Part shown: positions 7,973 to 35,414 of the stretch, in pieces
Position numbering within the stretch: the stretch's first letter is position 1
Layout of the letters: each line of letters starts with the position of its first letter
Assembly: GCA_025453925.1 (NCBI GenBank)
Contig: JALOPK010000002.1
Coordinates: 1 to 35,414 of the forward strand
Length of the DNA stretch: 35,414 nt
Reading direction: 5' to 3'
DNA from: Candidatus Eiseniibacteriota bacterium
GTDB taxonomy: Bacteria; JAFGKV01
The notes under the pieces: generated by a model
Databases searched by the model: none
The model's input: the letters and a program-made list of their open reading frames with translations, nothing else
What the model was told of the DNA's origin: nothing
Program-made: the position numbers and the translations under genes

Positions 7973-7996
7973 GGCCGACCGGATGGAAAAGGAGTC

Positions 7997-8689
7997 ATGA
8001 TGGTCAAAGAGCAGATTGCTCAGTTGGCGACCGTGTCAGGGGTCATCGGCTGCGGCCTGCTGGCCCGCGATGGCGCGGTGCTTCTCAACATGATGCCGGA
8101 GTTCATCTCGCCGGGCGAAGCGCGAAAGGCCGCCGACGCCGTGGTGGAAGCGATGCTCGGGCTTGAGACACTGGAGGAAGGCGTCTGGGAGATCGACATG
8201 GCCTTCGCCGAGGTGCTGTGCGTGATCCGTCCCGTCGGAACGTCTATCCTGATGCTTCTATGCGACCCCGACGCCAACTTGCCCATGCTGAAGATGAACG
8301 TGAACGTCGCGGCGAAGCGCATAGCGGCCGCGCCCGCCCACGAACTGACCGAGCTGCGGGCCGCCGCCGAGGCGACGCTCCAGGCGGAGCGACAGGCGGA
8401 GCGACAGGCGGAGCAGATCGTCGACGACTCGCTTCCAGTCGATGCGGTCAAGGCAGTCATCGCCGCGATCCGCGAACAGCTCGCCCAGAGCGACGTGTCG
8501 GACGCGATGGTCGACCAGATCCTGGGATCGACGGGTCTCAACCTGGAGGCGCCCACCCGGCCGAGCCTCAGAGCGGCACTCAATGACATTCTCGAGAAGG
8601 GGATCTCGAGGTCCATGGGCCGGGCGGAGGCCACCCGCTGGCTGAACCAACTGGTGAAACAGCACGGCCTCACAAAGCCCGGTGCGTGA
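7997..8689 (+). CDS. Second Roadblock/LC7-like protein with a C-terminal helical extension
   Basis: IAQLATVSGVIGCGLLARDGAVLLNMMPEF...LCVIRPVGTSILMLLCDPDANLPMLKMNVNVAAKRI; LQAERQAERQAEQ linker. Confidence 0.6.
   Translation: MMVKEQIAQLATVSGVIGCGLLARDGAVLLNMMPEFISPGEARKAADAVVEAMLGLETLEEGVWEIDMAFAEVLCVIRPVGTSILMLLCDPDANLPMLKMNVNVAAKRIAAAPAHELTELRAAAEATLQAERQAERQAEQIVDDSLPVDAVKAVIAAIREQLAQSDVSDAMVDQILGSTGLNLEAPTRPSLRAALNDILEKGISRSMGRAEATRWLNQLVKQHGLTKPGA
8381..8416 (+). repeat. Three copies of a 12-bp in-frame repeat (caggcggagcga)
   Basis: caggcggagcga caggcggagcga caggcggagcag, encoding QAERQAERQAEQ. Confidence 0.9.
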
Positions 8690-8787
8690 ATACTTCGGGA
8701 GGCCTTTCGATGCCCCTCAATCGCGCAGCCTACTGTCGGCGTTCCCGCGCCGATTCCTCACACCTTTTGTCCAGGAGGACACATCTC

Positions 8788-10284: not shown

Positions 10285-10299
10285 GAAGCGAGAGAGCCC

Positions 10300-12423: not shown

Positions 12424-12522
12424 GCTGATTGGGGCGCCAGCGGGTCGGGGAATCGCGCACGCGGGCTCGCCCAGCACCGGGTAATCGTTGGGGAAGGAGG
12501 CCGCGTCTTCGGCGGATAGACC

Positions 12523-17267: not shown

Positions 17268-18531
17268 AGCGCAGCGCCTCGATGGGGGGTATCGCGGCGG
17301 CTCGCCGGGCAGGGTAGTAGCCGAAGATCAAACCGACACTCACCGACACGGTGAAGGCCAGCGCCACGGCCGGAATCGTCGGACTCGCCCTGAACTGGGT
17401 GATCAGATGGATGCTGCCAGCGAGGAGCAGGCCCAACGCGATGCCGAGCAGCCCGCCCGCCAGGCTGATAGTGGATGCCTCCGCGACGAACTGGCCGAGG
17501 ATGTCGGCTCTTCGGGCACCCAATGCCCGCCGGATCCCGATCTCGCGCCGCCGTTCGAGCACGGAGGCAAGCATGATGTTCATGATGCCGATCCCGCCCA
17601 CCAGAAGGCTGATGGCGGCGATGGCGCCCAGCACGATGTTGAACATCCGCTGCTCCTTTTGCTGCTGCGCCATCAACTCCTCGGGAACCACCAGACCGAA
17701 GTCAGCCGCGCCCATGTGGCGGCGCTCGAGGAGCCGCCGGAGGGTCACCGCCGTCGGGCGGAGCGTTTCCTTGGGTGCGACCTTCACGGTGATCTGGGTT
17801 AGCTCGGCGACAGGGGCGACGATGCGGCGGCGTGCGAGATCAGTGTCCAGCGGCACATAGATGTCTCGATTGAGATCCCTCGCCTGCAGCACCCCCGCAC
17901 TCTCGGCGATTCGGGGCGTAGACCTCATCACGCCGACCACGGTGAACCAGTCGCGTTCCACCTTCACCCTCTTGCCCAGGGGGGATCGGATCGGGAACAG
18001 GTCCCGCGCGACGCCTCCGCCCAGCACGCACACCGAGCTAGTCCTCTCGCCGTCCATCTCGTGGAGGAATCGACCGTGCGCGAGAGGCGTCGTAATCACC
18101 TGGAGGAGGTCCGGCGTGGTGGCAACCAGGAGACACTCGGCCTCTTCGTCGGCGGCCAGAACGCGTGCCTTTCGATCAGTCTGGGGGACCACGGCGACCG
18201 CCGTGGGGATCACGGATGAAACGGCATCTGCATCCCGGCGGGACAGGCCCCGCGAGAACGCCGCCCCTTCACCGCGACGGTCTTCGGAGTCCTCGCCCAG
18301 ATCCCGGATAATGATGTTGTCGCTTCCCCATGCCTCATACTTCGCGAGCGCTTCGCGCTTGGCGCCTTCTCCCACGGCCAGCATGGCGATGACCGCGGCG
18401 ACGCCAAAGACGACCCCCAGCGTGGCGAGCATCGACCGCAGCTTGTGGGCACCGAGCCCGGCGACGCCGACGTGGAGGCTTTCGGTCACGCGGGCGCGGA
18501 CCGAATCCAGCAGATCGAACGTCGGTCGCAT
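17260..18531 (-). CDS. ABC transporter permease, MacB/FtsX type, without a fused ATPase domain
   Basis: LGAHKLRSMLATLGVVFGVAAVIAMLAVGEGAKREAL, and C-terminal IGIMNIMLASVLERRREIGIRRALGARRADI...IFGYYPARRAAAIPPIEALRYE. Confidence 0.93.
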   Translation of the reverse strand: MRPTFDLLDSVRARVTESLHVGVAGLGAHKLRSMLATLGVVFGVAAVIAMLAVGEGAKREALAKYEAWGSDNIIIRDLGEDSEDRRGEGAAFSRGLSRRDADAVSSVIPTAVAVVPQTDRKARVLAADEEAECLLVATTPDLLQVITTPLAHGRFLHEMDGERTSSVCVLGGGVARDLFPIRSPLGKRVKVERDWFTVVGVMRSTPRIAESAGVLQARDLNRDIYVPLDTDLARRRIVAPVAELTQITVKVAPKETLRPTAVTLRRLLERRHMGAADFGLVVPEELMAQQQKEQRMFNIVLGAIAAISLLVGGIGIMNIMLASVLERRREIGIRRALGARRADILGQFVAEASTISLAGGLLGIALGLLLAGSIHLITQFRASPTIPAVALAFTVSVSVGLIFGYYPARRAAAIPPIEALRYE

Positions 18532-18539
18532 GAACAGGG

Positions 18540-19889
18540 CTACCCTCTCCCCCTCACGCGGGGCGCTCGGTCGCTCCTGGGCCGCTCCCCTCCCGCACGC
18601 GAGGCCGAATCCTTGGGCTCGGTGGTGAGGCGAGCGTCGGCGGCGCCCGGCTCCACCAAAGAGACCGCCTGGCCGACCGTCAGGCCGCCCGCCACGACCA
18701 CATGATTGTCATTCTTGGGGCCGAGCCGGATCGGAGTCATCACGGACCGGCCGCCCTTCACCGTATAGGCGACCGTGGTGTCGGCGGATCGGTAGACGGC
18801 GTCGATCGGGATCCAGAGGGTATCGGGTATCTCGTCTATGATGATGGTGGAACTCGCGGTCATGCCCGGCCGTAGGATCGGGCTTGGCGTTTCAACCAGC
18901 ACGGAAACCTCGAAGACCTTGACGGGATTGTCGCCGCTCTTCTCCCGGGCAAGGGTCGCCACGGATCGCACCGCGCCGGTGAACAGACTCTCGGGGAAGG
19001 CGTCGAGCCGCACCTCGACTCGCTGGCCTTCCTTGACCTTGGCGACATCCACTTCGGATACCTCGGTTATGACCTCCATCTCGTTGAGGGCCGGCAGCTC
19101 GATGATCGGCTGCCCGGGCCACGGGGTGTCGCCCTCCTGCACCTTCTTGGGCTGTTCGCCGCCCGACCAGACCTTCGGGTAGACCACCAGGCCTTCATTG
19201 GGCGCCAGCAGGGTCAGACTTCCCCGCTCCCGCTGGGCGGTCTCCAGCTGGGCCGTCGCTTGGGAGACGCGGAGCTGGAGCTTCTTCTCGTCTTCCGCGT
19301 TGATGGTGCGCTGGCTCGTCAGTTTGGTCTCGGCCTTGGTGACATCGTTGCGTGAGCGTTCCAACTGGAGTTGCTGCTCTCGCTGCTTCACCTCCGCCTC
19401 GTATTGCATCTGTTCGAGCTGAAGTTCGGCCAACTCATAGGCCGCCTTGACATTTGCCAGATTCGCCTGGAGATCCTCCATCAGGGAGACATTGGCCGCC
19501 AGAGCCCGGGAGAGGTCGGCCTGGGCGATTTCCAGCTCGGACTGTTTCTGTTCGATGGTCTTGTCCAGCGCGCTGGTGTCGAACTGGGCAAGGAAGTCCC
19601 CCTTCTTCACGGTGGACCCTTCGGGCGCCAGCTTCACGACCTGCGGGCGATCGCTCCAGTTGCCGACGCGGGGCGAGGTCACCGTGGCCGACCGGGTTGC
19701 CCGGAGCTCGCCGGTCTCGGTCAGTGAGACGATGAACGTTCCCCGCTGCACGGATGCGGTGGGCGTCTCGGGGGCGGACCGCCGGGTTGCAAGGATCACA
19801 ATCGTTATAACCAAAGCCAGAGTTGCCGCCATGATGGCGCGTTTTCGCAGCAATCCCGTCACACGCACTGGGTTTCCCTCCCCTGTCAC
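18540..19889 (-). CDS. MacA/HlyD-type periplasmic adaptor subunit
   Basis: N-terminal TM anchor; long coiled-coil hairpin; APNEGLVVYPKVWSGGEQPKKVQEGDTPWPGQPIIELPALNEMEVITEVSEVDVAKVKEGQRVEVRLDAFPE. Confidence 0.9.
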   Translation of the reverse strand: MTGEGNPVRVTGLLRKRAIMAATLALVITIVILATRRSAPETPTASVQRGTFIVSLTETGELRATRSATVTSPRVGNWSDRPQVVKLAPEGSTVKKGDFLAQFDTSALDKTIEQKQSELEIAQADLSRALAANVSLMEDLQANLANVKAAYELAELQLEQMQYEAEVKQREQQLQLERSRNDVTKAETKLTSQRTINAEDEKKLQLRVSQATAQLETAQRERGSLTLLAPNEGLVVYPKVWSGGEQPKKVQEGDTPWPGQPIIELPALNEMEVITEVSEVDVAKVKEGQRVEVRLDAFPESLFTGAVRSVATLAREKSGDNPVKVFEVSVLVETPSPILRPGMTASSTIIIDEIPDTLWIPIDAVYRSADTTVAYTVKGGRSVMTPIRLGPKNDNHVVVAGGLTVGQAVSLVEPGAADARLTTEPKDSASRAGGERPRSDRAPRVRGRG

Positions 19890-20064
19890 GCGTCATCCCT
19901 GTCCGCGGTTGCCCTCCCGGCTGGACGATATGCTCTCGTGGTCGTGACCCGGAGTACACCGGCACACCGGAAGCCACACGGATACGTCAGCAGGTGGTTC
20001 ATTCCGCGATGCCTCATCAAGCAAACACCGCGCCCCGTTCGGTACAAGCCTCCCCCGTGCGGTG

Positions 20065-20170
20065 CACGCCCCCCTCCTCTTTGGAGGAACCCGCTTCGTC
20101 GCGTCCGCGGGCGAGACCACGCCCTGCCTTGCTCTTGAGGGCCACGCTTTATCGTGTCCGCGGGCGAGAC
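20065..20170. repeat. Two adjacent diverged copies of a 53-bp unit (20065-20117 and 20118-20170)
   Basis: Both end in gtccgcgggcgagac (20103-20117 and 20156-20170). Aligned by eye, the copies match at roughly three quarters of positions without gaps. Confidence 0.7.
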
Positions 20171-20289
20171 CCACTCGGCCATTCATCATTGCCCGTCGCC
20201 TCCGTTGTCCCCGGCCTTGCCATAGGCCATATTCGGCCCGTGCCCTGAACCAGCCATCTGAGGTATCTCCCGATGCGTCGAGGGTTTCC

Positions 20290-21351
20290 ATGATCCATAT
20301 GAATCACGCCAGCCAGGCGGTCCTTCCCGAGGCTTCGATTCGGGCCGCTCATGCCGTATACTCCCACTATGCGGTCGCGGGATCGCTGCCCATCGAGAGG
20401 TGGAAGGAAATCACCGCCACGGCCCGCCATAGGGTCGCCAGCCTCGCAGCGGTCGATGCCGTTGACATCGGCTTTGTCGCCAGCACTACCCACGGTCTGC
20501 AGTGTGCGATGCAGCTCGTGCCATTCCGGCCAGGGGACCGGGTGATCGTGTCCGGGGCGTTCCCGACCATCGTCGCACCATGGATGTATGGATCCGTTGC
20601 CGGCGTGAGGCCCTTGTTCGTGGAGTGGACCGAACCGGAGGCGGTGCTGCAGGGTGTCGCCGCTGCCTGTGCGGAAGGCCCCGTAAAGGCGGTGTTCATC
20701 GATTGGGTGCACTACACCACGGGCCGCATGCTCGATCTGGCGCAGGTGAGGGCGATCATGCCCTCGGATTCCTATCTGGTCGCCGACGTCATGCAGGGGC
20801 TTGGGCTGCTTCCTTCCCCCGCCCGGCACGTCGACATCATGGCTGCCGGCGGGGCCAAGTGGCTCATGGGGCCCGAGGGAACGGGCATCCTCTACCTTCG
20901 GCCCGACCGGCAGTGGAATCCCGGCCCCGTGGGCTGGCTCTCGGCCGAGTATGACGACTTCACCCACTGCATGCCCCCACGCCCGCCTGCTCCGGGGGCT
21001 CGCCGGCTGGAGGCCGGTACCCGCAATACACCCGGCATCGCGGCGCTTTCGGAGAGCATCAACCTGATCCTCGAATCGAACGACCCATGGGGGAAGGTCC
21101 GTCCCATGGTGCAGGCCCTGATCGAGGGCGCGCGACGCCTTGGCCTGGCGACCTCAGTGACGACTCCGGAAAGCGGTATCGTGGGGATCGAGGTCGCCGA
21201 TCCGCCCGCCATCGCCGCCGGCCTGCTGGAGCGTGGCATCCGTGTCTCCGCTCGGGACCGCTGGGTCCGTATCTCCCCCCACTTCGTGAACACGATGGCG
21301 GAAGTCGACACCGTGCTCGCCGCCCTCGCGGATATCCTCGCCGGAGCGTGA
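20290..21351 (+). CDS. Aminotransferase class V (PLP-dependent, cysteine-desulfurase-like fold)
   Basis: MNHASQAVLPEASIRAAHAVYSHY; DAVDIGFVASTTHGLQCAMQLVPFRPGDRVIVS; SYLVADVMQGLGLLPS; AAGGAKWLMGPEGTGILYLRPD (PLP lysine region). Confidence 0.85.
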   Translation: MIHMNHASQAVLPEASIRAAHAVYSHYAVAGSLPIERWKEITATARHRVASLAAVDAVDIGFVASTTHGLQCAMQLVPFRPGDRVIVSGAFPTIVAPWMYGSVAGVRPLFVEWTEPEAVLQGVAAACAEGPVKAVFIDWVHYTTGRMLDLAQVRAIMPSDSYLVADVMQGLGLLPSPARHVDIMAAGGAKWLMGPEGTGILYLRPDRQWNPGPVGWLSAEYDDFTHCMPPRPPAPGARRLEAGTRNTPGIAALSESINLILESNDPWGKVRPMVQALIEGARRLGLATSVTTPESGIVGIEVADPPAIAAGLLERGIRVSARDRWVRISPHFVNTMAEVDTVLAALADILAGA

Positions 21352-21367
21352 TCGCTGCCTGTTTCTC

Positions 21368-21403
21368 ATATAGGACATGTCCAATATAGGACATGTCCTA
21401 TAT
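21368..21403. repeat. Perfect 15-bp inverted repeat with 6-nt loop, built from two GGACATGTCC palindromes; possible bidirectional terminator or protein-binding site
   Basis: atataggacatgtcc (21368-21382) aatata ggacatgtcctatat (21389-21403). The second copy alone, 21384-21403, is a perfect 20-bp palindrome. Confidence 0.9.
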
Positions 21404-21438
21404 CAAGCGCCTCCCGCTGCCGCCTTGCACATCTCCTG

Positions 21439-21579
21439 CTGGAGCAGTGTAAACCGCGACCGCTGCCCCAGTGGGAGCGACTTCAGTCGCGATCCGGTAA
21501 TCCCCCGTCGCGCCTCACGGCGCTCCAACATCGTTGGTGCACCAGCCCCGTGCCCTGTTGGAGCGGTGTGAACCGCGAC
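21439..21579. repeat. Cluster of four REP/BIME-like units in mixed orientation between convergent genes
   Basis: Units: GCTGGAGCAGTGTAAACCGCGAC (+), GTGGGAGCGACTTCAGTCGCGATCC (+), reverse complement of GTTGGAGCGCCGTGAGGCGCGAC (-), GTTGGAGCGGTGTGAACCGCGAC (+). Each has a GGAGC...GCGA frame around a short stem-loop. Confidence 0.75.
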
Positions 21580-21585
21580 GGCGCG

Positions 21586-23466
21586 TCAGCGGGCGTTGCG
21601 GACGACGCGGAACCCGAGACGGTCATTCTGGAAGCCGGGGACGATGCCCAGACGGCTGGCCGACCTGCAGGCATCGGCCCGGGTGCGCCAGCTCCCGCCA
21701 CGCTGCACCCGCAGCGTGCCCTGCGGCGGGCCTAAGGGGTTCGACACTGCCTCTGAGGGATACTCGCCGTACCAGTCCCCGCACCACTCGGCGACATTGC
21801 CGTTCATGTCGAACAGGCCCCAGGCATTGGCAGTAGTTGTGGCAACCTCATGGGTGTGGCTGCCCGCATTATCGGTGAACCAGCAGTGCTTCCCCGACAT
21901 GCTTGCGCCCCAGGGGTACGCTGTGGTCGTGCCTGCGCGGCATGCATACTCCCACTCGGCCTCGGTAGGCAGCCGGTAGCCCGGCGCCGATTGGTCCCAC
22001 CATGCCTCCCCCGATTCGACGGGCGGGTTTCCGCCGAACGCCGATGTCAACGCCTTGTCTGCGTAGTAGCAGGGTTTCAACCCTTCCTGCTGCGAACGCC
22101 GGTTGCAGTAGATGACCGCATCGAACCAGGTTACCTGTTCAACCGGACGGTTCGGCCCGCGCCACCGCGAGGGGCTCTTCCCCAGGACCGCCTCCCACTG
22201 GGCAACGGTGACCTCCGTCGCCTGCATGAAGAAGGGCGCAGGCAGCGTCACCTCATGGGAGGCTTCTCCTCCATCACGACCCGCCTCCATGGGCGGTGAT
22301 CCCATGGTGAACGTTCCCGCGGGAACCGCGACGAAGCCCTCTGGCGCCTCGAAGGGGATCGGCGCGGCCAGGCCATCGTCATAGACAAACTCCACCTCCT
22401 GCTGCAGCCATTCAGATTCCGATCCGCCATCGTCGATCGCTTGCGCATAGATGCGCTGGCGACCCTCGGCGACCTCGAACGAGAAGGTCCCCGCCGCCTG
22501 TTCGACTGCAGCCTGCGGGTCATTCACCGCACACCGGTAATGGGCGATCGCGCCATCGTCAGTGCCCTCCAGGAGCACGGTGAGAGTGGTTCCGCGTACA
22601 CGCTCACCGCTCACTGGCGACACGATGCGGACCGACGGAGGCGCATCGATCACCCGGAACTCGAACCGGTGGGGCTCGGAGTAGTTACCATCGCAGTCCT
22701 TGGCCTGGACCTGGAACACATGACTCCCGCGGGGCACTTCCGCGAGTTCCGCGCGTGCGCGTTTAGTCACCACCGGCTCTCCATCGTCCAACTGGTACCG
22801 GTACTCCTCAATGCAGCGCTCGTCGTTGCCGAGGAAGACAAAGGTCGCAAGGCGCGCATCCTTGACGTTCATGACGCCCTTGGGAGTCTCGAGAAGACGA
22901 ACGGTCGGGGGTGCCCCCGTGGCGGTCGGCACGGGCAAAGGCGCGACATAGGGGCGATCCGGCTCGGCCTGCGGCACGATTGGTGGCGCTATGGGCACGG
23001 GTTTCTCCGACGTACACCCCAGCTCCCGCGCCGCATCAGGCATGATCTTGAACAAGTCCTTCAGCCTCTGCCCCATGCGGTTCACCGAACACCTCACCTG
23101 GGCGGTCTGCACATCCACGAGCTCGGCGGTCATGAAGTAGTCGCCCTCGACCTGAGAGAGCGAACCGAGCACGATCCAACGGACATTGAGGATCTCGCCC
23201 ATCTGGATGGCGCACTCGGTCTCGGTGCAGTCGATGAGCTGCACCTGCTGCTCCTTGAGGATGGTCTCCATGTTCTTTCGATCGACCACCACGAAGTTCC
23301 GCTGGTTCACGAACTCGCTGCGCAACCGCTCCGAGATGATGTCGGCCTCCTCCGGTTTCACCAGATTGGCCTTGAAGTGCAACACGGCTAGACGTCGTTC
23401 GAGATCGCCGGCCGTGGCGGACGCTGCGATCATCGTTGCCACGCACACAGTCGCCGACCAGCGCAT
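21586..23466 (-). CDS. Signal peptide + CsgG/FlgO-like N-domain + Ig-like region + C-terminal FGE(SUMF1)/sulfatase-modifying-factor fold domain
   Basis: RLAVLHFKANLVKPEEADIISERLRSEFVNQRNFVVVDRKNMETILKEQQ...WIVLGSLSQVEG; FGE-type FTMGSPPMEAGRDGGEASHEVTL, YRLPTEAEWEYACRAGTTTAYPWG, GLFDMNGNVAEWCGDWYG, RVQRGGSW, DRLGFRVVR. Confidence 0.85.
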   Translation of the reverse strand: MRWSATVCVATMIAASATAGDLERRLAVLHFKANLVKPEEADIISERLRSEFVNQRNFVVVDRKNMETILKEQQVQLIDCTETECAIQMGEILNVRWIVLGSLSQVEGDYFMTAELVDVQTAQVRCSVNRMGQRLKDLFKIMPDAARELGCTSEKPVPIAPPIVPQAEPDRPYVAPLPVPTATGAPPTVRLLETPKGVMNVKDARLATFVFLGNDERCIEEYRYQLDDGEPVVTKRARAELAEVPRGSHVFQVQAKDCDGNYSEPHRFEFRVIDAPPSVRIVSPVSGERVRGTTLTVLLEGTDDGAIAHYRCAVNDPQAAVEQAAGTFSFEVAEGRQRIYAQAIDDGGSESEWLQQEVEFVYDDGLAAPIPFEAPEGFVAVPAGTFTMGSPPMEAGRDGGEASHEVTLPAPFFMQATEVTVAQWEAVLGKSPSRWRGPNRPVEQVTWFDAVIYCNRRSQQEGLKPCYYADKALTSAFGGNPPVESGEAWWDQSAPGYRLPTEAEWEYACRAGTTTAYPWGASMSGKHCWFTDNAGSHTHEVATTTANAWGLFDMNGNVAEWCGDWYGEYPSEAVSNPLGPPQGTLRVQRGGSWRTRADACRSASRLGIVPGFQNDRLGFRVVRNAR

Positions 23467-23533
23467 ACTCGCTCCTTTCAGTGGGGCAGAACAGGCATCA
23501 CGTGCGGGCCGACCCTTCGCTCCCTGCGTGCGG

Positions 23534-25636
23534 TCAAGGGGCGCTCTCCGTGAGGTAGTTCCGGGGAGTGATCGTGCCGTTCTGCGACAGATCGAACACG
23601 TACCACCATAGTCCGGTCCCCGATTGGGGCACGTCCCAGCTCGCGATCACACCGGTGCCTGAGTAGACCACCACCCGTGCGTTGGACTGGGTGATCGGGG
23701 TCTCGTCGCTCGAGTACTTGAGGACCGCGTACTTACAGTCAGCGATAAGCTGATAGATGGTGATCGTCTCGGGACCCTCTCCATCAGTATCGTCGCGGTC
23801 GAGGTAGGCGTAGGGCTCCGAAGTCTCGCTGCCGCGTGAGCCAAACGGATAGTAGATGTGATACTGATCACCGACCCACATATGGCTGTCGAGATCGCGG
23901 GGGCTCGTGCCCCATGACATGACGATGCGATACTGACCCTCCGCCAGTTGCCGGCTGAGCACGAAGTTGGCCACCGCCGACTGACCGGCGAGGACGACAT
24001 CCTTGTTCTCCGTGATGTACCCGGACCGGGATGCCGTCAGGTCGTAGGCCCCGTCCAGGAGCGCGGGGAATTCATACCGTCCGTCCTGACCAGTCGTTGT
24101 TGACCGTGTCATCGGTCCCGCAAGATCGAGTCGCACATCAGCAAGCGCCGAACCCGTCTGTGCATCGGTCACCAGCCCCGATATGCCGACGGATGTCGCC
24201 ACCACGCTCACCACGGCAGTCGGTTCGTCAGGATCATTGCTCAGAATGACGATGGTTCCTGAAGAGGTGTCGAGATCGGTGCCGAATTGGGCGGTCGCAT
24301 GCAGCTCCTGAGTCGCGCCCGGCGCGAGCGTGAAGGATGCAGGACTCACCGACAGCCACGTGAGGTCGTCAGCCACAGTACTCACGTTCAAGATCAGGTT
24401 CCCGATGTTGCGCACGGTGAGTGTCCCTGTCACGCTCTCACCGGGGGTGAACGGGAAGGAGAGTGTCCGCCGTGAGACGTCGATGTTGGGCCACACCTGC
24501 ACTCCGGAGCCGGAGCGAACGGGCCGGATGCCGCTGAACGATGTCGGCATTCCCGGTTCGAGGCCGGTGCGGGATGCCGAGCGGCAGGCGAAGTCGGGGA
24601 AGGCGTATGCCCCCCCGCGGATGACCCGCCACGTGCCGGTTGTCGGCCCGCGGGGGTTGGCGGACGGCGATACGGCGTAGTAGTCGGGATCGAACCAGTC
24701 ATTGCACCATTCGCTCGCATTCCCACTCATGTCATGGAAGCTCCACCCGTTGGGCTCCCGGGTGCCCCCATCGTGCGTCGTATTGCCCGAGTTCCCCGCG
24801 TGCCAGCAGAAGCGATCATCCATAGTCTCGCCCCAGTAGAACTCAGAGTTGGAGCCGGCGCGACAGGCATACTCCCACTCAGCTTCAGTGGGCAGCCGGT
24901 ACCCCGACGCATCCCAGTTCATCCCCACGGTGGGCATCTGCGCCGCCAGATCCGCAGCGTCGTAGAAGGGGACATACCCCTCCCGCAGGCTCAATGCGTT
25001 GCAGAATGCTGCCGCCAGAAACCAGCTCACGGCCTCCACTGGCCGGTCTGCTCCCGGGAATACCGAAGGGTTCTCCCCTGTGACGGTCACGTACTGCTGC
25101 TGTCGCACTTCGTTGCGGGACATCGAGAACGAGTTCACGGTCACCGTATGCACGGGCCGCTCTACACCGTCGCCTACCTGGGGCGACCCCATTTGGAATG
25201 TCCCACCCGGAACCGCCACCATGTCAAGAACCGCACCCGCCCGCGTCATCCGCACGGTTGCGGTCTGCGTCGCGCCCAGCATGACCATCACGGTGGTCTC
25301 TCCCCAACTGGAGAGCAGCCCCCCACGAAACCCCTCGACGCGGATGCGAAGCTGGCCGACCGGCACTTCAAGCTCCAGCCGGCCCCGGGCGCCTCCCTCA
25401 AGGATTTCCATGGCGCGTCGGACCACGAGATCAGGGCCCTGAAACACCATGACGTATGCGCTGTCCACCAGAGAAGGGCTCGCCATGCCGTTGCCGGGGC
25501 CCTCCCACTCCAGTTGGAGGATGAGCTGCGCGGTCTGCGGTGTGATGAGGTCCTGCTGGCAGGAGAGCCCCGCGAGACACACGAGCGGAAGCGCCACCCG
25601 GCCCAGGAACCAGTTCCGGCTTTCTTTCATGGTCAT
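23534..25636 (-). CDS. Lipoprotein with FGE-fold domain, an Ig/ASPM-like domain, a carboxypeptidase-regulatory-like domain and a C-terminal YfaP/DUF2135-like domain; start at 25636 rather than 25825
   Basis: Lipobox CLAGLSC after MTMKESRNWFLGRVALPLV; FGE-type FQMGSP, YRLPTEAEWEYACRAGSNSEFYWG, SFHDMSGNASEWCNDWFD; ISGLVTDAQTGSALADVRLDL...DGRYEFPAL; YRIVMSWGTSPRDLDSHMWVGDQYHIYY. Confidence 0.85.
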   Translation of the reverse strand: MTMKESRNWFLGRVALPLVCLAGLSCQQDLITPQTAQLILQLEWEGPGNGMASPSLVDSAYVMVFQGPDLVVRRAMEILEGGARGRLELEVPVGQLRIRVEGFRGGLLSSWGETTVMVMLGATQTATVRMTRAGAVLDMVAVPGGTFQMGSPQVGDGVERPVHTVTVNSFSMSRNEVRQQQYVTVTGENPSVFPGADRPVEAVSWFLAAAFCNALSLREGYVPFYDAADLAAQMPTVGMNWDASGYRLPTEAEWEYACRAGSNSEFYWGETMDDRFCWHAGNSGNTTHDGGTREPNGWSFHDMSGNASEWCNDWFDPDYYAVSPSANPRGPTTGTWRVIRGGAYAFPDFACRSASRTGLEPGMPTSFSGIRPVRSGSGVQVWPNIDVSRRTLSFPFTPGESVTGTLTVRNIGNLILNVSTVADDLTWLSVSPASFTLAPGATQELHATAQFGTDLDTSSGTIVILSNDPDEPTAVVSVVATSVGISGLVTDAQTGSALADVRLDLAGPMTRSTTTGQDGRYEFPALLDGAYDLTASRSGYITENKDVVLAGQSAVANFVLSRQLAEGQYRIVMSWGTSPRDLDSHMWVGDQYHIYYPFGSRGSETSEPYAYLDRDDTDGEGPETITIYQLIADCKYAVLKYSSDETPITQSNARVVVYSGTGVIASWDVPQSGTGLWWYVFDLSQNGTITPRNYLTESAP

Positions 25637-25643
25637 CCCCCTC

Positions 25644-26747
25644 CTACCACGTGCGCGCCAGGACGGAACGAACCTCAAGGCCGCTGATATCGGTCTCTCC
25701 GGACGTGGTCCATGCGGTGCCGGAAAGAGTTCCGCCGTCGATCGTGAGAGTGGTCTGCCTGCCCAACCTGAGCCGGGGCCCGATCGAGGCGCCGAACACC
25801 CGGCCTCCTCCGGATCCATACCCATTGTTCCCCTCGATTCTTAGGAAGCCGGTTGCCTCCGCCTTGAGCCAAGGGGCGATCACATACCCTACCCGAAGCC
25901 GGAGCGCACCCTCCGGGCCAAAGGAATTCGCATCTTCGTCCACCAGGCCCGCATCGCTGTCTGCCTTGCCGGCAGCCCGGAACCGCGCCCACATGCGTAC
26001 CTCAACCGGATCGAACAAGCGGGGATAGATCGTCAGCAGACCCCGGATATCGGTCCGCGGCCCAAGTCTGCGCAGCTCATCGCCTTCCCAGAGGTCGCTC
26101 CCGTACACCACCACTGCCACGTCGGTCTTGAGCAGTGCAGGTGCGCTCCCCACCGAAACGCGGCGATAGAGACCCGCCGTGAACACCAGTTCCTCTCCCG
26201 GATCCAGTTCCTCATCGCTGTCCTCATAGGGCTGATACCGCGCGCGGACCGAATAGCCGATCCCGCCCGCGAGAGTGTTCTCCCCCCACGGACGGGCCAC
26301 GGCAATGCCTGCGGTCGCACTGAATCCGTCGATCGGGCTATCCATGGCGAAGCCGAGCTCGTCGCTCGCCACCAACGCGGCGATGGGAAGTTCCTCCTGC
26401 GAGAGCCGCGTAGACGCCGTGGGGACGCTGCAGCCTGCGCGCAGCAAAAGCGTCTGATCCAACGCATACCACGAAGTCTTGAGCACGACATTCCCCACCG
26501 CGGTGAGCTCTTCGTCGGCGGCGTCAAGCACGGTCCGCCCAGGGTTGCTCTTGAGAGTGAGGCCAAACCGCGAACCAAGCGGCAGATCGAGTCTGATGGG
26601 AACGGCGATCTGAGAGACCTCCAGGGTCGTGGTGTCCGCGGATTCCCATTGCCGAAGGGCGAGGCCGAACTCGAGCCGTCCGTTTCGTTGCGCGGCGGCG
26701 GAGCACGCGAACGCCGCGGTCAGCATCACAACGAGTGTCCTTCGCAT
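25644..26747 (-). CDS. Predicted outer-membrane beta-barrel protein
   Basis: Signal peptide MRRTLVVMLTAAFACSAAAQ; alternating amphipathic strands with aromatic girdle residues; C-terminal LEVRSVLARTW. Confidence 0.65.
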   Translation of the reverse strand: MRRTLVVMLTAAFACSAAAQRNGRLEFGLALRQWESADTTTLEVSQIAVPIRLDLPLGSRFGLTLKSNPGRTVLDAADEELTAVGNVVLKTSWYALDQTLLLRAGCSVPTASTRLSQEELPIAALVASDELGFAMDSPIDGFSATAGIAVARPWGENTLAGGIGYSVRARYQPYEDSDEELDPGEELVFTAGLYRRVSVGSAPALLKTDVAVVVYGSDLWEGDELRRLGPRTDIRGLLTIYPRLFDPVEVRMWARFRAAGKADSDAGLVDEDANSFGPEGALRLRVGYVIAPWLKAEATGFLRIEGNNGYGSGGGRVFGASIGPRLRLGRQTTLTIDGGTLSGTAWTTSGETDISGLEVRSVLARTW

Positions 26748-26756
26748 CGTCTCCTC

Positions 26757-28346
26757 CTACGGGAAATCGATGTCGATCACAATGGTGGGGGGCCCTGCCT
26801 CCCCCCCGATGGAAGGCTCCCGCGAGTCCTCGCCCGGATCGACGCCTCCGGTGACCACGTCCGCCAGATCGTCGAGGAGATCGGAGGCCAGTTCCTCCTC
26901 CGTCGGGTTCGCACCGGGCCATTCCTCTTCGCCTTCCCTTGCACCCTCATCGACGACACCGGCTCCTTCGTCGCCAGGCCCCGCTTCCTCATCGGCTCCG
27001 CCGGGGCCTTCGTCGTCGGGTGCTGTTCCTTCACCACCTCCGCCTGCCCACCGTTCGCCCGTGCCTCCACCATCATCCCCGCGGCCGTGAGACGACCGCG
27101 CGAGGAACTCCTGTTCGAACTGACTGACATCATCGGCCACGCGGTCAGTCTCGGCGAGCTGCTGCACCTTGTCGGCAGCCTCCCTGAACTTCGGGTCAGC
27201 CTTCGATGCTGCTTGGTAGTGCGTATGGGCCTTGGGCCAATCGCCCGCGTCCTCGGCGGCGAGACCGCGGGAGAACTCCAGGAAAGCGAGCAGGTTCCTG
27301 GTGGGCCTTCGAGAGATCTCCTCTCGTTCGATCTCTGTGAGTTCGATGCCCAAGCGCGAAACCGCGTCAAAGACGATGCCCTTCTCCATATCAAACACGG
27401 CATCAAGCTTGCCACCCACGGGTCTCAGGTTGTCGAGCCGGCCCTGGACCACGTCGGCTACCGCGGACTCGATGTTCACCCCGCCGGGGAAATCCCGATA
27501 CACGCCGTTGAGCACTGTGCCGGCGCCTGCGATCCTTCCCATACGCAGTGCGGTGCGATCATCAACCAGGCCGCTGGCACCCAGGCCAATCTCTTCCAGG
27601 AGCGCCACGACACGCGATCTTTCCAGAACCTGCAACCTACGGACCATGGAAAGGTCGGTCGTGAGGAACTCGGCCAAGCCCCGCCCCAAGACGGCAAGCT
27701 CCGAAGACACGCCGACGTACCGGAAGGGAAAGACGCCGACCGTCAGCCGGGGGAGTGCCTTGGCACGGGATGACTCCTCCTTCACCAGCCGCCCCATCTC
27801 GGTGTGCAGTTGTTGTCGCAGTATGAACCGGATTCTCCCCCGGATCTTGCGCTGGGCGCTCCGGGAAGGGATGGCGGGATACGCCTGGTAGATCTTGACC
27901 GCGCCATCCAGGTCGCCCGCCCGCTCCCGCATCAGACCTCGATAGAGCACACCCTCGGCCGACCAGTACCCCAGGCTTTGAGCGTTGGTGAGCTTCGTCT
28001 CCGCATCTTGATGCCGGCCCGTCCGGTAGTACGCCTGTCCCAGGAGGTCGAGTACCTCGCCGTTGTTGGGGTTCTGCACCGCCAGCGCCTCCAGGATCGG
28101 AAGCGCCTCCGCGCCCTTGTCCTCTGCAACGAGAGACCGTGCCCGTCCGACGCCGCTTGACGCACATCCCAGCACGAGCGCGCACAATGGGATGCACGCC
28201 CACACCAGCAAACGGTGCACCTCACTTCCGATTGATCGCGGGCTGGGGGAAGCCGTCCGCCCTCCATTCGCGGTTCCCCTCCCTCCGTTTCGGATTTCGG
28301 ATTTCGGATTTCGGATTCCTCTGGTATCCGCCGGCTGCCGACTCAT
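26757..28346 (-). CDS. CsgG-like/TPR lipoprotein with an acidic Gly-rich C-terminal tail; true start uncertain (28346, or GTG at 28220)
   Basis: Lipobox ALVLGCASS; TPR-like GAEALPILEALAVQNPNNGEVLDLLGQAYYRTGRHQDAETKL; CsgG-like LTVGVFPFRYVG...LTTDLSMVRRLQVLERSRVVALLEEIGLGASGLVDDRTALRMGRIAGAGTVLNG. Confidence 0.75.
   Translation of the reverse strand: MSRQPADTRGIRNPKSEIRNGGRGTANGGRTASPSPRSIGSEVHRLLVWACIPLCALVLGCASSGVGRARSLVAEDKGAEALPILEALAVQNPNNGEVLDLLGQAYYRTGRHQDAETKLTNAQSLGYWSAEGVLYRGLMRERAGDLDGAVKIYQAYPAIPSRSAQRKIRGRIRFILRQQLHTEMGRLVKEESSRAKALPRLTVGVFPFRYVGVSSELAVLGRGLAEFLTTDLSMVRRLQVLERSRVVALLEEIGLGASGLVDDRTALRMGRIAGAGTVLNGVYRDFPGGVNIESAVADVVQGRLDNLRPVGGKLDAVFDMEKGIVFDAVSRLGIELTEIEREEISRRPTRNLLAFLEFSRGLAAEDAGDWPKAHTHYQAASKADPKFREAADKVQQLAETDRVADDVSQFEQEFLARSSHGRGDDGGGTGERWAGGGGEGTAPDDEGPGGADEEAGPGDEGAGVVDEGAREGEEEWPGANPTEEELASDLLDDLADVVTGGVDPGEDSREPSIGGEAGPPTIVIDIDFP
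28288..28317. repeat. Four-copy 7-bp microsatellite (TTTCGGA; CCGAAAT on the minus strand)
   Basis: tttcgga x4 at 28288-28315 plus a partial copy; minus-strand translation IRNPKSEIRN. Confidence 0.95.
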
Positions 28347-28355
28347 CTCATCTCC

Positions 28356-30125
28356 CTACCGTTCGATCCGCGCGCGAATCAGGCCGAGACTGCTTTCCTC
28401 AACGATCACTCTGAGGTTGCCGAACGGGACGCGATTGATCTCCCGGGCCAATTCTGAAGGATGCCCTTCGAATGAGATTTCGAACCGCGCCAGTTCCTTG
28501 TCACGTGAACGCGGGACCACCGTGAGCACGCCGTCAACGCTCTCCCTCACCACACGTTCGATCGTGGTGAGATCGGTCTGACTCCTCACCCCCGTGACCT
28601 CAAAGGCGACAATGCGCCGCCCGTACACTTCCTCGCGGGCGAGGCGCACCAGCTCACGTTCCAGCTCCGTGCCGACCTTCTTGCACATTTCCTGGATCGC
28701 TACCAGCCCCGACTGTACCGCCTGGGGATCGGCTCCGACGCCGCTGCCGCTGACCGTTCCAATAACCTGCCCATTGTCGGCGCGAAGGATCTGGAAGCTC
28801 CCCTCGGCGGTGCTGGAGCGGATGTTTTCGATCCCGTAGCTGCCGATCGCCCCTCCTCCCGAGAGCGCGACCCGCCCTATCACGAGCAGGTCACCACCCT
28901 GCGTGAGCACGTAGGCAGTGAGGTCCTCCGAAGGGAGGCCGGGGGACCGCGCCTGCAGAGTGCGGCGGTATTGGCCGACATCGATCACGCGGAAACCTCT
29001 ATCGGTGAGCATGCCCTGCAATCGCGTCTCTGAGTAGGTCGGCTCCCGCCCTCCACCCGGGATCCCGTACTCCGCGCCGGTGGCGTCTTCCTCCGCCACG
29101 ATCATGACCCGGGGGTGAGCCCATGCCGGGTGGAGCACGCCCAGGGCAATGAGATCGTCCTCCAGCACGCCCCTCGCCACCTGCGCGGCGATCTCCACGA
29201 TCACTGTTCCCGCGGAGTCCCGTTCGCCGGTGACCGTGAAATCGCGCACGTATTCCCGCGAACGGGGGAGCACGTCGTCGCGAATGGACGCTACGTGGAA
29301 TGAAAGGCTATCCTGGCCCATCAAACGACCTGTGGAGCGACGCACTGCCGCCCGAAGCGCATCATCCGTTGCGGCCTCCCGAGCCGCGTCCCGACCCGCG
29401 TCGGTATCGTGCCGGCCGGTGGCGCGCACCAGGCTCACTCGTGCTTCGGTCTGGATGCGGATCTCCATCCTGGCCAGAGCATCACGCGCGACCGAGAAGC
29501 CGGGATCGGTCTTCAGCGCCTCAGCGTACTCGCGCCGGGCCATGTCGAGGTCGCCGGCGTCCTCCAGGCGAATCCCCATGCCGTAGTGGGAGAACGCCGT
29601 CTCAGAGATCCCGGCGGCCGATGGCCTCTCCAGTTTCTTGCCGAGCCTGTCGGCGAACGCCTCTGCCAGCCTCCCGATGAGATCGAGCAGGTCGCCCATC
29701 TTGCCGGTCACTTGCTCCGCTTTGACGAGGCGGGTCGTCTCGGTCTCGACCATCCGCGCATCGATGCGCACCTTCTTGCCCATCACCATGAAGCTACCAA
29801 GCAGCAGATAGCGGGCTCCCACGATCCGCCCGATCCGGCCGGCCGTCTGGTCGTCAACCGCGCCGCTGGCCTGCAGACCGAGCTCCTCGGCAACCTGGCG
29901 GATCCGGGACCGCTCGACGATCTCCAAATCATGCACCTGGGAGAGCTGGGTCGCCAAGGCCGCAGAGAAACCCTGGCTCAACGGGTCGTAGGTCGTCCGA
30001 TCAGTGAGGCTGTTGTTGAGGAAGTCGACAACGGCGAGAGTCTGGGGAGTATCTGCGGCGGAGGCAGGCGCCTGCCATGCGGACAGCGCGGCAAGCGCAA
30101 GACAGGGAACGAATGGCCGGCGCAT
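28356..30125 (-). CDS. CsgG/FlgO-like protein with TPR and LPP20/FlgT-like segments; start at 30125 rather than 30179
   Basis: Signal peptide MRRPFVPCLALAALSAWQAPASAA; TLAVVDFLNNSLTDRTTYDPLSQGFSAALATQLSQVHDLEIVERSRIRQVAEELGLQASGAVDDQTAGRIGRIVGARYLLLGSFM; AREAATDDALRAAVRRSTGRLMG. Confidence 0.8.
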   Translation of the reverse strand: MRRPFVPCLALAALSAWQAPASAADTPQTLAVVDFLNNSLTDRTTYDPLSQGFSAALATQLSQVHDLEIVERSRIRQVAEELGLQASGAVDDQTAGRIGRIVGARYLLLGSFMVMGKKVRIDARMVETETTRLVKAEQVTGKMGDLLDLIGRLAEAFADRLGKKLERPSAAGISETAFSHYGMGIRLEDAGDLDMARREYAEALKTDPGFSVARDALARMEIRIQTEARVSLVRATGRHDTDAGRDAAREAATDDALRAAVRRSTGRLMGQDSLSFHVASIRDDVLPRSREYVRDFTVTGERDSAGTVIVEIAAQVARGVLEDDLIALGVLHPAWAHPRVMIVAEEDATGAEYGIPGGGREPTYSETRLQGMLTDRGFRVIDVGQYRRTLQARSPGLPSEDLTAYVLTQGGDLLVIGRVALSGGGAIGSYGIENIRSSTAEGSFQILRADNGQVIGTVSGSGVGADPQAVQSGLVAIQEMCKKVGTELERELVRLAREEVYGRRIVAFEVTGVRSQTDLTTIERVVRESVDGVLTVVPRSRDKELARFEISFEGHPSELAREINRVPFGNLRVIVEESSLGLIRARIER

Positions 30126-30720
30126 CTGCACCTCCCATGCACGGGAATTCTGATCTACCCCCGAGCGCCCCACATCCACGGACGATGGTTGAAGAAGACG
30201 TCCGCTCTCAGGGAAACAACATGGACACCGAGGCCCGGATCCGTCAAGCAGTCGACCACGGTCCCCCCGCGGTGCCCATCGGTCGGACCGCCAGTCCCGT
30301 CCGGCAGTACTGAACTATAGGGAGGCGAGGAAGCTGTACCCATCAATGGGTGGGAGTCATCGGGCTTGGGCAGCAGTGGCGCGACATGGGCCACACTGCG
30401 CGTTCCGGAGACGACTACGGCAGCGAGGGACACCGACCGTGGTGAGTGCACCATCGCCATCAGGTCCAAGCGTGCGGCCCAACCAGGAGCTCTCGTGGCG
30501 GGAGCCCGCCGTGCCACGGCGTGGACCGACGCTCTTGGCCCTTTCCGGCTCATTCGGTCCGGAGGCGCACACGCCGTTCGACAGGGGCCCGCGCAACGCG
30601 TGACAGTTGCCCTGACCGGGTCGTGTTGTGTATGTTTGATGCCCGGCTCGAATCGAGCGCATTCCAGGCGCCCGCTGACCGAGCCGGAACACGGCGACTA
30701 CTCACTCCGGAGGTCATCCG

Positions 30721-30996
30721 ATGCCCAAGCTATACCGAACTGACGTCCCATCCGAAGCTCATCTGAAGGTCTTCGTCACCGATGTCCGCCTGGACGCGGA
30801 CCTGGTTGTTTTCGAGACGAACGACCCCTGGGCCGCCACGGAAAGCGGCGTATGGTACTATACCGACATCAGGTCAGACGCCGACAAGATCGTGTGCTAC
30901 ACCGACATCCGGTCGGAGGCGGACGTGGTCGTGTACAAGACCGACTCGCAATGGGACACGGGTTGGATCAACAACAACAAGGCAGGGCTCCTGTAG
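30721..30996 (+). CDS. Small DUF6150-like repeat protein (91 aa)
   Basis: Recurrent strand motif: LYRTDVPSEAHLKVFVTDVRLDADLVVFETN...WYYTDIRSDADKIVCYTDIRSEADVVVYKTD; ggagg RBS upstream near 30709. Confidence 0.75.
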   Translation: MPKLYRTDVPSEAHLKVFVTDVRLDADLVVFETNDPWAATESGVWYYTDIRSDADKIVCYTDIRSEADVVVYKTDSQWDTGWINNNKAGLL

Positions 30997-31003
30997 ATCA
31001 TGC

Positions 31004-31077
31004 CCTCCTGCTCCTTTGCCGGCCGACGCATCATGCAACCCCGCGGCGCGGAGCGAATCCGGCAAAGGAGCAGGAGG
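31004..31077. repeat. 19-bp perfect inverted repeat with 36-nt spacer
   Basis: cctcctgctcctttgccgg (31004-31022) and its exact reverse complement ccggcaaaggagcaggagg (31059-31077). Confidence 0.95.
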
Positions 31078-31110
31078 CGGGGTTCACGCGGACCAGTTGA
31101 CGTACTCTGA

Positions 31111-32052
31111 ATGAGTGGACTTCCATTGCTTCCCGGTCTCACCGGTTGGGCCTCGGTTCTGGACCACCAGAATCGGCTCCTGGCTTCGCTGCTTCTGGTG
31201 CTGCTGCTATGGCTGACCCGTTCCGTCATCCTGCGGGCGGTCCTCAAGCAAACCACCGAGCCCCGGACCCGCTATGCCTGGCAGAAAGGCTCAGGGTACG
31301 CAGTCGCCTCTCTGGCGGCCGTGTTGCTCGTCTTGCTGTGGGTGGAGAGCCTTCGTTCCATCGCCACCATGATCGGTATCCTGACTGCAGGGCTTGCTAT
31401 CGCGCTCAGGGATTTGCTTGTGAATCTTGCGGGCTGGCTGTTCATCATCTCGCGCCGACCGTTCGGACTGGGTGACAGGATACAGATCGGCTCCCACCGT
31501 GGCGATGTCATTGACATCAGACTGTTTCAGTTCACGCTGATGGAGATCGGCAACTGGGTCGACGCGGATCAGAGCACGGGCAGAATCATCCACGTTCCGA
31601 ATGGCATGGTCCTGACCACTCCACTGGCGAACTACAGCAGGGGTTTCCACTACGTCTGGAATGAGATGCCGGTCTTGATTACCTTCGAGAGCAACTGGCA
31701 GGCGGCCAAGGGAATTCTCCTCCGAGTTGCGGAAGCCCACGCAGAGCATCTGACAGATGAGGCGCGACGCCGCGTGATCGAGGCGAGCAGTCGCTTCATG
31801 ATCTTCTACACGAAACTGACCCCTATCATTTATACATCAGTGAAAGACAGCGGCGTGCTGCTGACCATGCGCTACCTCACCGATCCGAAGCACCGCAGAG
31901 ACAGCGAGCACGCGATCTGGGAGAGCGTCCTCACCGAATTCGGCCAACGAAAAGACATTGAGTTCGCGTACCCCACTTGGCGTGCATATGTCCGCGGTGA
32001 GCCTCCACCGCAGGGAGAATCCCCGGCTTTCGTGCCTCCACCTCCCTCTTGA
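31111..32052 (+). CDS. MscS-family mechanosensitive ion channel
   Basis: TM helices then IATMIGILTAGLAIALRDLLVNLAGWLFIISRRPFGLGDRIQIGSHRGDVIDIRLFQFTLMEI...VPNGMVLTTPLANYSR. Confidence 0.92.
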   Translation: MSGLPLLPGLTGWASVLDHQNRLLASLLLVLLLWLTRSVILRAVLKQTTEPRTRYAWQKGSGYAVASLAAVLLVLLWVESLRSIATMIGILTAGLAIALRDLLVNLAGWLFIISRRPFGLGDRIQIGSHRGDVIDIRLFQFTLMEIGNWVDADQSTGRIIHVPNGMVLTTPLANYSRGFHYVWNEMPVLITFESNWQAAKGILLRVAEAHAEHLTDEARRRVIEASSRFMIFYTKLTPIIYTSVKDSGVLLTMRYLTDPKHRRDSEHAIWESVLTEFGQRKDIEFAYPTWRAYVRGEPPPQGESPAFVPPPPS

Positions 32053-32109
32053 GTGGAAGGGGCGCGCGTTTCCGTCTTCTCCGCGTCACTCGTGAAGTCC
32101 CGCAGATTC

Positions 32110-32124
32110 GGGCTCGCGGAGCCC
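32110..32124. terminator. Possible terminator hairpin between convergent genes (6-bp stem GGGCTC/GAGCCC, 3-nt loop)
   Basis: gggctcgcggagccc in the convergent gap 32053-32221; no clear adjacent T-tract. Confidence 0.3.
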
Positions 32125-32221
32125 GGCGGGTCGGTGGACACGGGTGATCTCGCCGGGGTTTTGTCGTCGGCTGCTGAGACCCGCATGGCGGGAGCGTATC
32201 GCGAGGCGCCCCGCGAAGTCG

Positions 32222-34522
32222 TTACCGATACATGCTCGTGATGACGCGGCGGTACTTCTGCTGGATCACGCCTCGGCGTTTCTTCAAAGTGTGGGTCAGT
32301 TCGTCCCCGACCTTGAACTCATCGCGGATCAGCCTGAACTGCGATATTCGTTCAAAGGTCTTGAATCCGTTGGCGGGCGAGATCAGGCGCTTGACCTCGT
32401 CCTGGAACAGCTCGATGACCTTCCGGTCGCCGATCATCTCGTCGGGGTCTTGTGGAAGCCCCTTCTCCTCGGCGACCTTGGTCAACGCATCGAAATCCGG
32501 GACCAAGAGCGTGGCCAGGGACTTCTGGTCTTGCCCCACGACGACGGCCTGGGAGATGAACGGGCTCTCCTCGATCTTTGCCTCTATGGGGTAGGGCTCG
32601 ACGTTTTCGCCGCCCAACAGAACGATGGTGTCCTTCGCCCTTCCGAGGAGTTGGATGTCTCCGTTCACGGAGAGACGCCCTATGTCGCCGGTGTTGAACC
32701 AGCCATCCTCGCTCAGCACCTCGCCGGTCGCTTCGGGGTTCTTGTGATACCCCTGCATGACCTGCGGCCCCTTGACGAATACCAGGCCCTTATGGCCCTT
32801 GAGCACCTGTTTCGAAGGGTTCTCCAGACTTCGGATTTCGACCTTGGTGAAGGGGATGGGCGGACCGACCGTGCGGAACATCGACTTGCGGGGGAGCCGG
32901 GCCGATACCACCGGTGACGTCTCGGTGAGGCCGTAGCCCTCGACGATCCTCAGACCGACGGTGTCGAAGAACTCGTCGACATGCTGGGGTAGCGCGCCGC
33001 CTCCCGAGATGGGGAGGATCAGGCGGCCTCCCATCTTCTGGCGAATCGCCGAGAAGATCCTGTGATCGGCGAAGTGGTAGATCGGCGCCAGCAGCGTCAC
33101 GACGAGAACCGCCTTTGCGCGTCGAAGGAACTCCTCCCATGGGAGTGACGTCGCGAATCGGGGCTCTCTCCCTTCGATGACCCGCCAGGAGCGGGAATAC
33201 CACATGGAGAGCTTGAGCAGTGTGAAGAACAGCTTCTGTTTGGATGGTGGCTGCTGCCGCACATTGTTGAGAATACCCTTGTGCAGCCCCTCCCAGACTC
33301 TGGGCACGCTGGCGATATAGTGCGGACGCAGAAGCTCGAAGTCGCGCAACAGCACCTGGCGCAGGGGTTTCGAGTAGGCCAGACTGACGCCGCTGGCGAG
33401 GATGATGTACTCCACGGTCCGCTCGAACACGTGCCAGGGCGGAAGGATCGACATGAAGATCGTGCCGGGCTTGATTCCGAAGTAGTCGGGAAGCACGTCG
33501 ACATTGTGCATGACGTTGGCGTGGGTGAGTACTACGCCTTTCGGTACCCCCGTCGTGCCGGACGTGTAGATGATGGTCGCCACGTCGGTCGGCTTCACCT
33601 CCGCCGCGTAGTCAAGGAACTTGCGGGGGCTCACTGCGCGTTCTTTGCGGCCTTTCTTCAAGAGCAGATCCAGTGGTATGGCATGCTCGGGGCCGCCGTG
33701 GTACTCTTCGTCGAGGACCACGATCGTCTTGAGTTCCGGAAGCTGGTCTCTGATCTTGAGGAGCTTGGAGAGGTCCGTCCCTTCCGGCAAGGCTTCTCCT
33801 CGCTCCAGCTCGCGGCTCAGCCTGGCCAGCCGGTCCAGGACTGCCGCGTACCGTCCCTTCGGTGAAGGAATGGCCTTCAAGGACCGGAGCACGTCGCGCA
33901 CTTCACCTTCAAAGTAACCCATCTCTGCCAAGGCCAGCGCCGCCTCTTGCTTGACTTCCGGGTCCTTGGACCCGAGGAGATCCACCAGCTTGTCGCGGGC
34001 GCCCGCCACTCGGTCGATGTCCCAGAGAGCCCTGGCCAGGGGGATGGCGAGCGCGGGATCCACCGTGGTATCGAAGAGGGCCTGCAAGGGGGGCAGGACC
34101 TTCTCGGGGTCGCCGTGGTGGCCCAAGATGTCGATGGCTGCAATCTTCACTTCCTTGGATCCGGCGGACCTGGCCAGGTTCTCCAGCGCTGCGTGGGCCT
34201 CGGCTTTGGAGTCCTCATCTTCGCTGCCGAGGAGGACTCTCGCGCACGCAAGCTGCCCTCGCTCGCTCGAGCGCAAGAGCTTCGACCTCAAGGCGGGCTC
34301 TGCCGACTTGCCGAGGGACTCGAGCTTCCTCATGGCGGTCCAGAGACCGGCTCCTTCGCCGGAGTCCGCGAGTCCGAGCGCGCTCTCGACCGCAGGGCCT
34401 ACACTGGAGGCTTCCGCCTCCGACTTGCCGGGAGATGAGTCCTGGCCCGGCTTCTCCTCCCGCGCAGGAGCGGATCCCAGGATGACCGGGAAGGCGAGGA
34501 CGATGGCGATGAAGGCGCGCAT
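32222..34522 (-). CDS. Fusion ORF: N-terminal signal peptide + HEAT-repeat-like region joined in frame to an N-terminally truncated long-chain acyl-CoA synthetase (AMP-binding)
   Basis: N-part: MRAFIAIVLAFPVILGSAPA and HEAT-like KEVKIAAIDILGHHGDPEKVLPPL...KDPEVKQEAALALAEMGY. C-part: SKLLKIRDQLPELKTIVVLDE, TIIYTSGTTGVPKGVVLTHANVMHN, VEGYGLTETSPVVS, DGWFNTGDIGRLSVNGDIQLLGRAKDTIVLLGGENVEPYPIE. Confidence 0.85.
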   Translation of the reverse strand: MRAFIAIVLAFPVILGSAPAREEKPGQDSSPGKSEAEASSVGPAVESALGLADSGEGAGLWTAMRKLESLGKSAEPALRSKLLRSSERGQLACARVLLGSEDEDSKAEAHAALENLARSAGSKEVKIAAIDILGHHGDPEKVLPPLQALFDTTVDPALAIPLARALWDIDRVAGARDKLVDLLGSKDPEVKQEAALALAEMGYFEGEVRDVLRSLKAIPSPKGRYAAVLDRLARLSRELERGEALPEGTDLSKLLKIRDQLPELKTIVVLDEEYHGGPEHAIPLDLLLKKGRKERAVSPRKFLDYAAEVKPTDVATIIYTSGTTGVPKGVVLTHANVMHNVDVLPDYFGIKPGTIFMSILPPWHVFERTVEYIILASGVSLAYSKPLRQVLLRDFELLRPHYIASVPRVWEGLHKGILNNVRQQPPSKQKLFFTLLKLSMWYSRSWRVIEGREPRFATSLPWEEFLRRAKAVLVVTLLAPIYHFADHRIFSAIRQKMGGRLILPISGGGALPQHVDEFFDTVGLRIVEGYGLTETSPVVSARLPRKSMFRTVGPPIPFTKVEIRSLENPSKQVLKGHKGLVFVKGPQVMQGYHKNPEATGEVLSEDGWFNTGDIGRLSVNGDIQLLGRAKDTIVLLGGENVEPYPIEAKIEESPFISQAVVVGQDQKSLATLLVPDFDALTKVAEEKGLPQDPDEMIGDRKVIELFQDEVKRLISPANGFKTFERISQFRLIRDEFKVGDELTHTLKKRRGVIQQKYRRVITSMYR

Positions 34523-34766
34523 GGGCAAGACAAGTGATTCGAACGTTCCGGGAAGGAGCCAGGAAGTCCTTGGAAGCATGTGTCGGCTGCTTTCTCCACG
34601 ATGGGGGAACCTCGGATGCGGACCCTCGCCATCCTAACATTCCGGAGAAGAGCGAGGCAAAGAATTCATTTCCTGCGACCCTTCGGGGACGATAAAATTC
34701 CACCTCCTGCCTGGGTTTTTCGCGCGGGCCAGCTTTGTCGCCTCGAAGGCTCGAGGTGCGGTGCGC

Positions 34767-35414
34767 ATGGAAGACGTCCCATCGACTCCAGCCGGCCCGA
34801 TCGACCGGCGGCCTCCCTTCCTTCAAGCCGAGTTCCCCTTTCCCTCCCCCCTGCCCAGCGCGTCTGGAAGGACCGCGCCTCGAAGGACCATCGTCAGGAT
34901 CCTCAGCGGGGACTTCCTCGGGATCGAGGGGCGGCCGGTGGAGGTCCAGGTGGATGTTTCCGCGCGTGGTTACCCGGGCTTCCACATCGTCGGGCTTGCC
35001 GGCAAGTCCATCCGGGAAAGCCGTGAGCGGATTCGAGCGGCCCTGCGTAACTGCGGGTACCGGTTCCCTCACGATCAGAGGGTCGTCATCAACCTGGCAC
35101 CCACCGCGGAGGAGAAGGAAGGCTCGGGTTTTGACTTGGCGGTGACGCTGGGCCTCCTCCTTGCAAGCCACCAGCTCAGCTTGAGCGAAGACCTGCTGCG
35201 GGGGGATGGGCTCGTGGCGGGTGTGGGGTTCCTGGGCGAGGTCGGGCTCAACGGGGAGATCCGGCCGGTGCCCGGCGCCCTGCTCGTGGCCCACGCGCTC
35301 AAGGAGCGCGGCGCGTCGCGCATCGTGGTGCCCCGCGAAAATGCCCGCGAGACCGTGCTCGTGGAGGGAATGTCTTCCTTTGCCGCCGGTGACCTGCACG
35401 AGGCCATCGCAGCG
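34767..35414 (+). CDS. comM: ComM/YifB-family Mg-chelatase-like protein, N-terminal part; truncated by the window end
   Basis: In-frame reading from ATG 34767: ...IVRILSGDFLGIEGRPVEVQVDVSARGYPGFHIVGLAGKSIRESRERIRAALRNCGYRFPHDQRVVINLAPTAEEKEGSGFDLAVTLGLL; no stop before 35414, so absent from the ORF track. Confidence 0.85.
   Translation, partial: MEDVPSTPAGPIDRRPPFLQAEFPFPSPLPSASGRTAPRRTIVRILSGDFLGIEGRPVEVQVDVSARGYPGFHIVGLAGKSIRESRERIRAALRNCGYRFPHDQRVVINLAPTAEEKEGSGFDLAVTLGLLLASHQLSLSEDLLRGDGLVAGVGFLGEVGLNGEIRPVPGALLVAHALKERGASRIVVPRENARETVLVEGMSSFAAGDLHEAIAA

Follow-up and report, generated by a model that had tools for sequence, protein, structure and literature searches.

Does an open reading frame that runs from a secreted HEAT-repeat protein straight into a long-chain acyl-CoA synthetase (ACSL) encode a fusion protein, or does it join two genes that never belonged together? 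The frame lies near one end of the window, i.e. the complete stretch of 35,414 nt from Candidatus Eiseniibacteriota that was analyzed here, which is the entire contig C478 of an assembly of 502 contigs that is 82% complete. It is 785 aa long and open at 32222-34579 on the minus strand, with a single frame from the HEAT part into the ACSL part. The second methionine, at nt 34522 (MRAFIAIVLAFPVILGSAPA), is the likely start and coincides with the end coordinate given in an earlier, sequence-only reading of this DNA. Pfam detects HEAT_2 in the first third of the frame (E 1.3e-10, best stretch 174-245), and AMP-binding (E 2e-49) and AMP-binding_C_3 (E 8.4e-10) in the same frame. That reading described a signal peptide and HEAT-like repeats continuing in frame as an ACSL, a description borne out by the open frame and the Pfam matches, with the signal peptide read by eye from the sequence. 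The AMP-binding domain is incomplete, with only profile positions 110-384 of 384 covered. The following features are referred to below:

1800-33772, no strand assigned: native part of the contig, based on DNA matches to a genome of the same genus (G001), which do not cover all of it
32222-33772, minus strand: C-terminal ~517 residues of a native long-chain ACSL without its first ~116 residues, based on DNA and protein matches to G001 and on Pfam
33752-33784, minus strand: the join, a stretch (EGTDLSKLLKIRD) that resembles both parents, based on anchored nucleotide comparison
33773-34522, minus strand: signal peptide and HEAT repeats, the N-terminal part of an exported HEAT-PDZ-S41 C-terminal processing peptidase of Planctomycetota, based on identity to planctomycetes
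34761-35414, plus strand: foreign yifB/comM (Mg chelatase-like AAA ATPase), divergent from the HEAT gene and ending at the contig edge, based on TIGR00368, identity and a tree

From residue ~269 on, the frame is alike to FadD-like ACSLs (AMP-binding PF00501) and retains intact TSGTTG and GYGLTETSP motifs, but differs from them in that the first ~116 residues are swapped for foreign sequence. The congener G001 (this genome being G000, and G002 a genome of the same family) encodes a separate, ordinary ACSL of 633 aa (C102:28709-30610, minus strand). The ACSL half is 80% identical to that contig at the DNA level (window 32230-33772) and 84% identical to its ACSL at the protein level (residues 239-784). 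This comparison yields the ~116 missing residues, in agreement with the 100-150 aa of N-terminus estimated as missing from the sequence alone. Collinear DNA blocks of 70-80% identity to the same congener contig cover window 21688-33772 and end inside the ACSL gene, and local DNA alignment revealed no clear similarity to G001 upstream of this point in the gene. G001 DNA also aligns with much of 1800-21700 (67-75%), so that the contig body is native. An intact full-length ACSL is present in G002 as well, and the best matches in G001 and G002 in an ACSL search across 40 relatives are ordinary ACSLs. When this genome was searched, neither the lacking N-terminus of the ACSL nor the gene located upstream of ACSL in the congener was found; therefore, the native continuation appears absent from the bin. 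The real gene almost certainly encodes a complete, cytosolic ACSL of about 633 aa, and its 5' end is missing from the bin.

Two other observations concern the native part of the contig. A small ORF of 91 aa with repeated YRTDVPSEA/YTDIRSEAD/YKTDSQWD units (window 30721-30996) precedes an MscS-like ORF and is part of a region that shows synteny with G001. Short stretches within window ~21360-21585 (query positions 19560-19783) match many G001 contigs at 73-92%, which suggests, from sequence similarity, a repeat family in the genus.

The HEAT half has different relatives. G001 and G002 contain no ortholog of it, with one weak match of 36%. A search of the genome collection returned one match, in a Planctomycetota groundwater MAG, where the HEAT half corresponds to the N-terminus of a C-terminal processing peptidase composed of a signal peptide, HEAT repeats, PDZ and S41. 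Identities amount to 54-56% for G060 and G059 and 43-44% for L051 and G040; TIGR00225 and PF03572 were both found in L051. HEAT relatives occur in 27 of the 29 genomes of one Planctomycetota class, the nearest being 54-55% identical, and all 20 planctomycete loci examined have S41 downstream of HEAT, with ACSL in none of them. Residues 1 to ~268 of the window frame are thus 43-56% identical to Planctomycetota C-terminal processing peptidases (TIGR00225, Peptidase_S41 PF03572), but PDZ and S41 do not follow the HEAT repeats, because the contig switches to ACSL at this point. When the S41 half was searched for in G000, G001 and G002, only ordinary S41 peptidases were obtained (33-42%); given this outcome in G000, the other half of the foreign peptidase is not in the bin. 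Exported HEAT-PDZ-S41 peptidases are a conserved feature of one Planctomycetota class (loci L056-L084), and a literature search returned no description of this architecture or of its pairing with comM.

The gene next to the HEAT half has planctomycete relatives as well. A divergent yifB/comM adjoins the HEAT-S41 gene in 16 of the 20 planctomycete loci, and the window matches this arrangement, with HEAT on the minus strand beside comM on the plus strand. The genome has its own comM (G000:C188:1238-2944), 88.8% identical to that of the congener. To this own copy the window comM is about 42% identical, versus 65%, 57% and 55% to the planctomycete comMs of G060, G059 and G040, respectively. In the comM tree, the own, G001 and G002 copies form a 100/100 group without the window copy, which groups with planctomycete rows at 90/87, a placement that is not strongly supported and in which the window row is fairly long. 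Judged by identity and tree, the comM in the window is foreign, an additional copy that comes from another phylum. Composition also sets the end of the contig apart: the tetranucleotide distance of 33773-35414 from the rest of the contig is 0.359, exceeding the values of all 81 same-length native segments used as controls (0.235 ± 0.028, maximum 0.317). The G+C content is similar on both sides of the join and does not discriminate between them.

The junction had been placed near nt 33765-33795 from the sequence alone, and similarity to the congener indeed begins at nt ~33772, in the LSKLLKIRD motif, with the local DNA alignment starting at CTCTCCAAG of this motif. The residue number given for it, 268, holds when counted from the start of the 785-aa frame and not when counted from nt 34522. 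The join stretch corresponds to GTDLAKLLKLKE or GTDPAKLVKIKE in planctomycetes versus VLSKVLKIRDELP in the native ACSL; planctomycete relatives read ..EGTDLAKLLKLKE.. or ..EGTDPAKLVKIKE.. where the window has ..EGTDLSKLLKIRD.. The KLLKI motif is similar in both parents, the planctomycete side being judged from relatives (the nearest ~55% identical) and not from the exact donor. That the parents are alike in the same frame at the switch point, a natural spot for sequences to be joined falsely, explains both why the join is located there and why the frame stays open. Only 1.6 kb past the join, the contig ends within the foreign piece.

The frame has two parents of different origin, with a sharp break between them and a foreign comM beside it, and the two flanks of the join go back to different lineages. 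We are highly confident that the HEAT/ACSL open frame does not represent a fusion protein but a chimera of metagenome assembly, located at the end of a contig, and we infer that the join was made by the assembler, not in the cell. The fragmented assembly and the position of the foreign piece at the contig end count in favor of this reading, whereas the frame maintained across the join and the failure to find the missing ACSL 5' end elsewhere in the bin count against it. The last ~1.64 kb (33773-35414) would stem from a Planctomycetota genome and comprise the 5' part of a HEAT-PDZ-S41 gene and the 5' part of the divergent comM. This piece would have been joined to the interior of the native ACSL gene at a short look-alike stretch (..CTCTCCAAGCTCCTCAAGATCA..), and the reading frame would have been kept because both parents read the look-alike motif in the same frame.

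Among the three options offered by the sequence-only reading, the assembly chimera is retained, as the halves come from different phyla, and the in-frame deletion and the new architecture are abandoned. Searching the halves separately, as it had advised, led to separate parents, namely the congener ACSL and the Planctomycetota HEAT-PDZ-S41 peptidase, and the junction it had proposed to look for in related genomes is absent in all relatives of either half examined. The topological conflict that it had pointed out, an exported ATP/CoA enzyme, vanishes, since the export signal comes with a secreted protease, and the enzyme is a cytosolic one from a different bacterium. GUNC (PMC8201837) addresses the problem of chimeric contigs in metagenome-assembled genomes. 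As in such contigs, genes of two lineages share one contig here with a sharp boundary near its end; the difference is that the join occurs within a gene, with the frame preserved, and thereby mimics a fusion.

An in vivo interphylum transfer, in which a planctomycete fragment (5' HEAT-S41 plus comM) recombined into the ACSL gene by micro-homology and created a true fused gene, would account for the frame being open across the join and for the donor piece being a contiguous natural gene pair. We consider it improbable: the piece is cut off by the contig end after 1.6 kb, neither a mobile element nor a second boundary was seen, both parent genes would be truncated, a native comM is already present in the genome, and the congener is without the junction. 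The product would probably consist of the exported portion of a peptidase from a planctomycete, spliced to a truncated, broken ACSL, and an ACSL that lacks its first ~116 residues and follows a signal peptide is unlikely to be functional.

A new conserved architecture, i.e. an exported HEAT-repeat acyl-CoA synthetase, has the single open frame as its only argument and is extremely improbable, as the ACSL half matches ordinary ACSLs in G001 and G002, the closest relatives searched, the HEAT relatives examined are S41 peptidases in 20 of 20 cases and the halves trace to different phyla. Neither sign of a genuine fusion was encountered: the same junction did not occur in an independent genome (40 relatives, 20 HEAT loci), and the halves are not both native, with the HEAT half absent from the congener and the flanking comM foreign. 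An in-frame deletion between two neighboring native genes, with which the shared strand and frame of the two parts would agree, was rejected because no HEAT gene lies beside the ACSL of the congener, and is just as implausible given that the congener genome has no good HEAT match and that the adjoining comM is also foreign.

Taken up in a database, the fusion would pass for an exported acyl-CoA synthetase and a new domain architecture, an error that is prevented by tracing its halves to parents in different phyla. The last 1.64 kb of the contig, including the duplicate comM, is flagged as contamination. With two comM genes of different phyla in the bin, single-copy and contamination estimates for this genome may be affected.
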